A stretch of DNA of 38,927 nt. Source: Desulfurococcales archaeon (GTDB taxonomy: Archaea > Thermoproteota > Thermoprotei_A > Sulfolobales > Acidilobaceae). Position numbers and translations under genes: made by a program. Every line of letters begins with the position of its first letter. Position 1 is the stretch's first letter. The stretch covers positions 1 to 38,927 of the forward strand of contig WAKG01000003.1 of NCBI GenBank assembly GCA_015523445.1, in the 5' to 3' direction. Shown piece by piece: positions 16,585 through 19,558 of this stretch. The notes below the pieces were generated by a model. It made no database searches, was not told where the DNA came from, and saw only the letters and a program-made list of their open reading frames with translations.

Positions 16585-18429
16585 GTGGAGGAGCCAGTGT
16601 TCCCCTACAGGGAGTTTAGGTCTGGACAGAGAGAGCTTGCTGAGGCTGTTAAAGAGACGGTTAGTGGCGGAGGTATACTTGCGGTAAAGGCCCCTACAGG
16701 ATTCGGAAAGACTGCTGCAGTTATTTATGGCCACCTACTGGCTGAGGCGCCTAAGGTCCTCTTCCTAGTTAGGACTGTTAATGAGGTAGAGCCTGTGGCT
16801 AGAGAGCTGAAGAGGTTTGGAGTCAACTATACAGTATTGATCTCACCCCGCAGAACCTGTCCCCTACTAAGAGGGTCCTCCAGTCATGTACCAGTAGAAG
16901 ACTTCTGGGAAAACTGTAGGATAGCAAGGCTCCGCGGCGCTTGCCTCTATTATATGGAGGTTGACTCTATTGATCCCAGCTCTGTATCTACTATCCTCTT
17001 AAATAGCCCTAGTTCCCTCTCGGGCCTCAGGCTAATAGGCTCCAAGCTGGGCTCTTGCCCCTTCTTCACTGCTAGGAGGCTTGTTAGGGATACAGCATTC
17101 ATTATAGCTACGTATCCCTACTTCTTCAAGAAGGAGTTGTTTGACTATGTCGTGGCTGAGATGGGGGTGTCCTATGGGGATCTTAGTGTTGTGATCGATG
17201 AGGCGCACTCCATATTATCTATCCACTCTATAACTGAGAGGAGCCTGACCCTAGACATGCTAGATAGGGCTGTGGAGGAGATCAAATCTAGAGTTCCAGA
17301 GTATAAAGAGGTTTTGGATAGTCTAATAGCTCTAAAGAACCTTATATCTAGGGTTATGGAGAGGCGCGCTAGGGGGCTTAGGCTAATAGATAAAGAAATC
17401 GTATTCGAGGCACTGGGTGACCATCAGCTCATACTGGATGCGGCAGAGGAGTCCAGGTTTAGGGCAGCTAGTGAAGCCTTGGCCAGTGGCGATGCGTCTA
17501 GTATGGTGTCTATAAGGAGTCCATTGTACTCTGTTGCACTTTGGGTAGAGACCATCGTGCTTGACGACTCTAGGGTTTTCTATAGTGGGGAGCCTAAGCC
17601 CCTGCTACTCGTCACATTATTAGATCCGGCAAGGATAGCTAGAGAACCGTTAGAGTCGGTACGCAGTGCCGTCCTCATGAGCGGGACCCTGCCCCCCCAT
17701 GGGTTCCTAAGTAGGATAATAGGGCTAAAGAGGAGCATCCAATACCTGGATTTATCCGTAACTAATAGAGTAGGAAAGGATTCTGTATATACTGCTGTAG
17801 CATCCGACGTATCCACTAGATATGTAGAGAGGAATAGGGTTACCTATTCTAGGATAGCATCGTATATTAATGTGATCAACACTAGGCTTCCGGGCCCCAA
17901 ACTGGTGGTATATCCGAGCTACGAAGTTATGAGGAGCATACTAGACAAGCTGCCTGCAGGCGTTGAGATGCACACTGAGGATAGGGGTACTAGTATAGAC
18001 TCACTAACAGAGTCCCTGTCTCCAGATGACCGTGTACTAATCAATGCGGTAGCTGGAGGTAAACTTGTTGAGGGTGTCGAGTTTACCATTAACGGTCATA
18101 GTATTGTGAGGGTTGTAGTGGTGGTAGGCGTCCCCTTCCCTCAGCCTGATGACTATACCAGGGAGCAGCTTCAGGTGGTCTCCTCCAGACTAGGCAAGGA
18201 GGGTGGCAGAGACTATGTCTACAGGTATCTTACTATAGTTAAGGTTAAGCAGGCCCTGGGCAGGGCCCGAAGGAGCCCTAGTGATAAAGCCGCGTTTTTC
18301 CTTTTAGACTATAGGTATCTTAGGAAGGATCTGAGGTCTATGCTAGGACTCAGGTATGATAGGGTGTTTAAGGGTGTATATGGGCTAGCGGCCACTCTTC
18401 TAGAGGCCTCACGGCTATTGTCTAGCTAA
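16585..18429 (+). CDS. xpd: XPD/Rad3-family iron-sulfur DNA helicase
   Basis: 5'-3' superfamily 2 helicase, likely acting in DNA repair. Walker A is KAPTGFGKTA (about 35-44), the DEAH box VIDEAHSI, and motif VI QALGRARRSPSDKA. Four cysteines at 92, 111, 120 and 158 (TCPLL, NCRI, ACLYY, SCPFF) match the 4Fe-4S pocket found in archaeal XPD. At 614 aa it is somewhat longer than the roughly 550 aa of Sulfolobus XPD. GTG start with GAGGGG 7 nt upstream, 22 nt after the candidate guide RNA. Its TAA stop overlaps the stop of the convergent gene (CTAA). Confidence 0.94.
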   Translation: MEEPVFPYREFRSGQRELAEAVKETVSGGGILAVKAPTGFGKTAAVIYGHLLAEAPKVLFLVRTVNEVEPVARELKRFGVNYTVLISPRRTCPLLRGSSSHVPVEDFWENCRIARLRGACLYYMEVDSIDPSSVSTILLNSPSSLSGLRLIGSKLGSCPFFTARRLVRDTAFIIATYPYFFKKELFDYVVAEMGVSYGDLSVVIDEAHSILSIHSITERSLTLDMLDRAVEEIKSRVPEYKEVLDSLIALKNLISRVMERRARGLRLIDKEIVFEALGDHQLILDAAEESRFRAASEALASGDASSMVSIRSPLYSVALWVETIVLDDSRVFYSGEPKPLLLVTLLDPARIAREPLESVRSAVLMSGTLPPHGFLSRIIGLKRSIQYLDLSVTNRVGKDSVYTAVASDVSTRYVERNRVTYSRIASYINVINTRLPGPKLVVYPSYEVMRSILDKLPAGVEMHTEDRGTSIDSLTESLSPDDRVLINAVAGGKLVEGVEFTINGHSIVRVVVVVGVPFPQPDDYTREQLQVVSSRLGKEGGRDYVYRYLTIVKVKQALGRARRSPSDKAAFFLLDYRYLRKDLRSMLGLRYDRVFKGVYGLAATLLEASRLLSS

Positions 18430-18806
18430 ACCTCCTCCACCCTTGACTCCAGCTCATCATATACGTCAAGTATAGCTTCGCGCGTCTTCCTTTCAACCTT
18501 GAAGCCGTGTAGCCTTAGTATCCTATCTATCTCGTCAACTATAGATACCAGAGTTTCTAGGACCTCCTCTAGCGCTTCTCTCGGATCCTCTCCGTGGTCC
18601 AGATATTCGTCAACCCTCTCCCTTAGCCCCTCACCTACCTTCATCTCCACAACAATGGTATCCCCAGTGGGGTAGACCTCTATGTATATGGGCTCGTCGG
18701 GAACTATAATTTCGAGGACTCCATTCTTACTCTTAGTTGTTGCACCTCTCCTACTAACGGTTTTAGAGATCTCCTCTACTACATCTCTTCCTAGCACGTT
18801 ATTCAC
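18426..18806 (-). CDS. Acidic hypothetical protein (126 aa)
   Basis: Unrecognised. The N-terminal half looks like a small beta-rich domain (VLEIIVPDEPIYIEVYPTGDTIVVEMKVG), and the C-terminal half a charged helix (about 65-126). The ORF-track start is GTG 18806; an in-frame GTG at 18797 has GGGTG about 6 nt upstream and may be the real start. A TATA-like ATATTATA at 18835-18842 lies between it and the candidate guide RNA. Convergent with XPD, sharing 4 nt at the stops. Confidence 0.7.
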   Translation of the reverse strand: MNNVLGRDVVEEISKTVSRRGATTKSKNGVLEIIVPDEPIYIEVYPTGDTIVVEMKVGEGLRERVDEYLDHGEDPREALEEVLETLVSIVDEIDRILRLHGFKVERKTREAILDVYDELESRVEEV

Positions 18807-18852: not shown

Positions 18853-18927
18853 GGGGGTCAGCCCTGCGCGGGGTCTTCACCACCCTAACTATAGGGCTCC
18901 GCCCTTTCGAGCCACATCACTCCCCCC
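18853..18927 (-). ncRNA. Candidate C/D box guide RNA overlapping a stop codon
   Basis: Minus strand. Terminal stem GGGGG (18922-18927) with CCCCC (18853-18857). Box C GTGATGT (18914-18920), 12-nt guide GGCTCGAAAGGG, D' CGGA (18898-18901), a 17-nt linker with hairpin CCCTA/TAGGG, C' GTGAAGA (18874-18880), 12-nt guide CCCCGCGCAGGG, D CTGA (18858-18861). Boxes C, D' and C' each differ from consensus at one base, but the G and A that form the sheared kink-turn pairs are kept. The TGA inside box C is the stop codon of the methyltransferase gene. I found no confident target for either guide. Confidence 0.5.
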
Positions 18928-19558
18928 GGATTAGCCGTATACAGGCGAAGCCCTCTTTGCCAGTATAGTCTCTAGGCTCCTCCGGCCTCTCCCTCTCCCA
19001 CGGCATGTATGTTATGGTGGCCTTTATAGAGTCAACAGTGAATCCAGCCTCCCTAGCCATCTCTACAAGGCTGGCTATACTGATAAATCTGGCATGAGAA
19101 TAGTATGGATGCCCTTTGTCTGCTAGGGTAGAATAGTACCTGCCTAGGGGTGACTCCTTGGGTACTATGCATATTACCATGACTCCTCCAGGCTTTAGTG
19201 CCCTGTATGCCTCTTCCATCATCCTATGTGGATCGTTCATAAAGCATATAGATACGACGACAAGTATGCTGCCCAGAGATAGGCTCCTAACTGGGAGGGC
19301 CTCTCCCCGGGCAACTGCAACCTCTATCCCCCTGTCCAATGCTATCCTGAGCATCTCCAGGCTAGGATCTATCCCGAACACGCATCCAGCCCTCTGCGCG
19401 AAGAACCCTGATCCCACTCCTACTTCCATGCAGGGAGTAGGTGCATCCCGGAGCATGTCCACAACGAGTCTAGCCTCATTCTCCGCTGTGATCCTGTGCC
19501 TTGTATACCATGAATCATACTCTACAGCCCTCGAGTCGAACAGCCATGCAGTGGACAA
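18917..19558 (-). CDS. Class I SAM-dependent methyltransferase
   Basis: A 213-residue Methyltransf_11-type protein. Motif I is CMEVGVGSGFF, followed by FGIDPSLEML (ribose-binding acidic residue) and ALKPGGVMVIC (motif VI region). The substrate cannot be told; this group includes small-molecule and quinone methyltransferases. TTG start with AGGGG upstream. Its stop codon lies within box C of the candidate guide RNA downstream. Confidence 0.83.
   Translation of the reverse strand: MSTAWLFDSRAVEYDSWYTRHRITAENEARLVVDMLRDAPTPCMEVGVGSGFFAQRAGCVFGIDPSLEMLRIALDRGIEVAVARGEALPVRSLSLGSILVVVSICFMNDPHRMMEEAYRALKPGGVMVICIVPKESPLGRYYSTLADKGHPYYSHARFISIASLVEMAREAGFTVDSIKATITYMPWERERPEEPRDYTGKEGFACIRLIRGE

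Follow-up and report, generated by a model that had tools for sequence, protein, structure and literature searches.

Does the DNA at the 3′ end of a methyltransferase gene in this archaeon also encode a guide RNA, which RNAs would such a guide modify, and what follows from a stop codon that lies inside one of its boxes? These questions were raised by a sequence-only reading of the window, i.e. the whole stretch of 38,927 nt that was analysed, which had placed a candidate C/D guide RNA at positions 18853-18927. Read 5′ to 3′, the minus strand from 18927 to 18853 is GGGGGGA-GUGAUGU-GGCUCGAAAGGG-CGGA-(17 nt)-GUGAAGA-CCCCGCGCAGGG-CUGA-CCCCC. It consists of the 5′ strand of a terminal stem (GGGGG, 18922-18926), box C (GUGAUGU, 18914-18920), the D′ guide (12 nt, 18902-18913), box D′ (CGGA, 18898-18901), a D′-C′ spacer of 17 nt that folds into a small hairpin and differs in length among relatives (18881-18897), box C′ (GUGAAGA, 18874-18880), the D guide (12 nt, 18862-18873), box D (CUGA, 18858-18861) and the 3′ strand of the stem (CCCCC, 18853-18857), all on the minus strand. 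Boxes C′ and D were assigned from the homologue alignment together with the sequence, and the UGA of box C is invariant in that alignment. As in C/D-box sRNAs, boxes C, D′, C′ and D follow each other in this order, guides of about 12 nt lie upstream of D′ and D, and the terminal stem adjoins boxes C and D. Both 12-nt guides and the GGGGG/CCCCC stem had been read correctly; the boxes and coordinates stood overall, except that box D′ is the imperfect CGGA rather than the canonical CUGA and that box C ends in U, not A. In many homologues box D′ is CUGA or CAGA.

For the search among relatives, a sequence-only model of 14 homologues from Acidilobaceae, the window's copy included, was used. It matched positions 18853-18926 of the window with an E-value of 5.2e-19. 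In the order it also matched 186 of 214 genomes and in the class 118 of 122 good ones, in almost every case at a single site; all five genomes inside the class but outside the order were among those matched. A scan of genome contigs returned mostly chance bacterial matches besides the archaeal ones. The fourteen Acidilobaceae homologues have in common the core bases of the boxes and an invariant core of 10 nt in each guide, and the guide cores are nearly invariant throughout the class. Boxes and guides are kept across the class while the flanking DNA and the neighbouring genes differ, i.e. the element is conserved as an RNA, independently of coding context. The flanks 5′ of box C and 3′ of box D also differ among genomes, yet they pair with each other within each: in 14 genomes the mean stem energy was -9.6 kcal/mol for own pairs versus -5.5 kcal/mol for mixed pairs, and none of 20000 permutations was as good. 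The terminal stem covaries.

The proposed guide RNA was confirmed by this class-wide conservation and by the model match. Short and degenerate box-like motifs could also meet by chance at the end of a gene, with no RNA behind them, and the weak Rfam match of the window (best sR23 with 14.4 bits where the cut-off is 45, E-value 0.25, no threshold of an Rfam C/D family being reached) would fit that; however, throughout the class the RNA is kept although the genes beside it are unrelated and its surroundings change, and its stem pairs within genomes. Conservation independent of coding context refutes a chance arrangement, to which we assign next to no probability. Several homologues are recognised by Rfam C/D models below their thresholds (snoPyro_CD with an E-value of 4e-5 for L246 and sR5 with 4e-4 for L239). 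A literature search with the guide sequences gave no archaeal sRNA paper among the matches listed, and experimental sRNA catalogues may already list the RNA or its targets.

The claim that the stop codon of the upstream gene lies inside box C was also borne out. The UGA at 18919-18917 ends, in frame, the ORF 18917-19558 on the minus strand, which encodes a class I SAM-dependent methyltransferase of 213 aa and overlaps the sRNA gene with its 3′ end; the same three bases (18917-18919) are the stop codon and the core of box C. In Acidilobaceae relatives the same methyltransferase is followed by the same sRNA, and stop positions were compared in the 15 family members that have the methyltransferase directly upstream. 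The UGA stop lies in box C in eight of them (G000, which is the window's genome, G001, G002, G005, G016, G017, G053 and G060), in box D′ in two (G013 and G045) and in box C′ in one (G011); the stop is upstream of the sRNA in three (G021, G010 and G064) and downstream of the whole sRNA in the remaining one (G004). A different gene stands upstream in family f11, an ORF ending in KYGA that in G180 is a 2,3-bisphosphoglycerate-independent phosphoglycerate mutase, and this gene, too, ends with the UGA of box C in several genomes (G180, G192, G201, G206 and G208). Since the stop position varies and the upstream gene differs, the sRNA is the constant element around which the stop codons vary. A stop codon conserved without the boxes, which the sequence-only reading had named as evidence against it, is the reverse of this pattern of class-wide boxes and guides with a varying stop. 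As a separate observation, the methyltransferase frame enters or crosses the sRNA in G011, G004 and G013 (L004, L007 and L016), where a C-terminal extension translated from part of the guide RNA is predicted. A functional link between sRNA and methyltransferase was considered and set aside as unsupported, the protein being a generic SAM methyltransferase and the adjacency being limited to one family.

PMC7994747, citing Tripp 2017, puts at 25% the share of archaeal C/D genes that include the stop codon of the upstream gene, almost half of these in box C, and describes the effect of such overlaps on a reporter as neutral or slightly negative. Being described there as common, the stop-in-box-C overlap is an ordinary arrangement and not new. 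With the genes of Tripp 2017, as they are summarised there, the locus shares a box C UGA that is the stop codon, and there is no difference in principle; what the relatives add to that set is a stop found in box C, in C′, in D′ or outside the RNA, and two unrelated upstream genes. The sequence of one RNA was kept while a methyltransferase in some genomes and a phosphoglycerate mutase in others came to end in its box C, and the relatives provide a natural series in which the origin of such overlaps between stop codons and k-turn boxes can be followed.

In C/D guidance, the nucleotide opposite the fifth position from the box receives the methyl group. Complements of the guides, for which the sequence-only reading had proposed a search of host rRNAs and tRNAs, were looked for in the tRNA sets of G000 and G002 (full), G164 and G194 (nearly full) and G088 (in part). 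In G000, G002, G088 and G194, 11 contiguous base pairs join the D′ guide to the anticodon arm of tRNA-Glu(UUC); the fifth nucleotide counted from box D′ faces U34, and tRNA-Glu(CUC) mismatches the guide exactly at position 34. Where box D′ is the canonical CUGA (L016), position -1 pairs with G30 as well. An exact genome pattern of the D′ complement had matched no tRNA because the real target does not include the -1 pair. In the tRNA-Glu(UUC) gene of G194 (L327), a stretch resembling a D-arm intron is inserted upstream of the anticodon arm, and the guide target is intact.

The D guide pairs with tRNA-Leu at the junction of the variable arm and the T-stem, with G47 opposite the fifth nucleotide from box D. 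The pairing extends over 14 contiguous base pairs, two of them G-U, in three tRNA-Leu of G088, over 13 of 14 positions in four tRNA-Leu of G194, and over 10 contiguous base pairs with one G-U in G000. A tRNA-Arg(GCG) was considered as a target of the D guide and dropped. Each guide is in this way complementary to a stable RNA whose predicted target faces the fifth nucleotide counted from the box; the complementarity is weakened in family f7, where in G164 both the D′ and the D pairing are affected. In this family, tRNA-Glu(UUC) has A37 instead of G37 (L296, G164) and the D guide is changed to GCCGCGCAGCA (L248); together these changes suggest altered targeting in that lineage.

How strongly the tRNA matches count was assessed with shuffled guides. 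With the tRNAs of G000 and G002 as targets, the number of shuffles out of 400 that did as well as the guides ranged from 0 to 13; with those of G088, none of 300 shuffled D guides was as good. For the guides of G194, 12 of 300 and 22 of 300 shuffles were as good, and its D′ score was reached by up to about 7% of shuffles when the total register score was used. That distant families show the matches again with an identical register is a stronger argument for the predicted targets than the shuffle tests. The moderate rarity of the single matches would be expected if they were coincidental and the true target of a real sRNA were rRNA or another RNA. Most archaeal C/D guides target rRNA (in Pyrobaculum 56%, versus 16% for tRNA; PMC7994747), and the MAG of the window has no assembled rRNA of its own. 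In seven Acidilobaceae genomes, the best ungapped 16S and 23S matches were weak, had mismatches in the 10-nt core and fell on sites that were not shared, although the guide core is invariant, whereas the pairings with tRNA return, in an unchanged register, in families that are only distantly related. In G015 and G023, long matches located upstream of the 16S gene were discarded, since what is matched there is the opposite strand of the sRNA gene. Of the proposed search for complements, the tRNA part succeeded with tRNA-Glu(UUC) and tRNA-Leu, and a conserved rRNA site was not found in the 16S and 23S of the seven family genomes; a true target other than tRNA appears improbable.

Another partner for the D guide is offered by pre-tRNA-Thr(UGU), and it is slightly less improbable that in Acidilobaceae this intron is the important partner of a real sRNA. 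Every intact tRNA-Thr(UGU) gene read in this family has a short intron, mostly of 15-19 nt, in the D stem, and genomes of three other families have none. The intron sequence includes CUGCG(C/U)GGG, or differs from that motif at one base, and can pair with the D guide along 10-12 nt; it forms the hairpin CCC-UGCGC-GGG or one close to it, and by inspection fits a bulge-helix-bulge. An sRNP would bind the loop of this hairpin and influence how the precursor folds, is spliced or is methylated. For G000, pairing of the guide is better with the intron than with tRNA-Leu, and the same complement is found in the tRNA-Arg(UCU) introns of G002 and G011. The guide core is, however, class-wide and hence older than the intron, and methylation of an intron that is removed has no obvious use. 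Guide and intron both have a high GC content and are palindromic in part, so that a 5-nt match in the loop together with a GC stem may have arisen by chance; among 400 shuffled guides, 13 match the tRNAs of G000 equally well. The intron had been taken first as the main D target and was demoted when the guide proved to be class-wide. That a single guide RNA links Um34 in tRNA-Glu(UUC), Gm47 in tRNA-Leu and recognition of the D-stem intron loop in Acidilobaceae pre-tRNA-Thr(UGU) is a speculative proposal to which we give a low probability; if it were true, a methylation guide would have been recruited to a pre-tRNA intron or would have shaped it. Independently of the guide, the introns of tRNA-Thr(UGU) (L119, L159) and tRNA-Arg(UCU) (L136, L097) lie at different positions and have CCUGCG(C/U)GGGG in common, and these short introns are possibly related.

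The explanation that we consider probable is that of an archaeal C/D guide RNA for 2′-O-methylation with U34 of tRNA-Glu(UUC) and G47 of tRNA-Leu as predicted targets and with an incidental stop overlap. From the sequence we infer that the sRNA is transcribed and directs methylation. Cutting or trimming of the methyltransferase transcript at its 3′ end would release the sRNA, which, by analogy with its family, would be assembled with L7Ae, Nop5 and fibrillarin, with L7Ae at the k-turns and fibrillarin being directed to the target. The D′ guide would then lead to a methyl group on the wobble U34 of tRNA-Glu(UUC) and the D guide to one on G47 of the tRNA-Leu isoacceptors. Since UGA is part of box C anyway, a stop codon at this place may have been tolerated or favoured. 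An mRNA from which the sRNA matures would lose its stop codon, and therefore the competition between RNA maturation and translation that had been suggested is plausible for each individual transcript.

With the known archaeal C/D-box sRNAs (Sulfolobus sR, Pyrococcus, Pyrobaculum) the RNA shares boxes, 12-nt guides, terminal stem and size, as well as a single-copy gene that overlaps a protein gene. In contrast to them, both guides here appear to serve tRNAs; tRNA-targeting sRNAs usually have one guide that lacks a target (PMC7994747), which counts against a double tRNA guide. PMC7668247, citing snoRNAdb, lists predicted C/D guides for U34 of tRNA-Gln(UUG) in S. acidocaldarius and for G47 of tRNA-Leu(UAA) in P. 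furiosus, and states that Gm47, although predicted, was undetected in the P. furiosus tRNAs analysed. Compared with the guides listed there, the positions U34 and G47 of tRNA-Leu are the same, but tRNA-Glu(UUC) replaces tRNA-Gln at U34 and one RNA would serve both sites. Several methylated tRNA positions of S. acidocaldarius are still without an assigned guide (PMC7668247). A link of a C/D guide with a pre-tRNA intron is also known from pre-tRNA-Trp of Haloferax and Pyrococcus, where the intron is the guide itself, whereas here, speculatively, a separate guide would bind the intron. The locus is useful in providing a class-wide guide RNA with predicted tRNA targets that can be tested.

Additional elements were observed in the neighbourhood of the sRNA. 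A putative H/ACA sRNA, GCCCGCGGCUUCCCGGCGGCGGC...ACAGCCUCCAGCCGCGGGCACA, with an outer stem and a 3′ ACA (e.g. L006, about 2250-2360 on the plus strand), matched no Rfam family, and a brief inspection revealed no rRNA target that was convincing; this H/ACA-like element is conserved near the C/D sRNA and the 16S rRNA in many Acidilobaceae genomes (L005-L009, L015, L040 and L041). Directly downstream of the sRNA in the window, an ORF of 126 aa (18426-18806, minus strand) is found, for which there was no Pfam or NCBIfam match. This ORF follows the sRNA in the genus of the window, whereas in several other genera the sRNA is followed by the 16S rRNA region.
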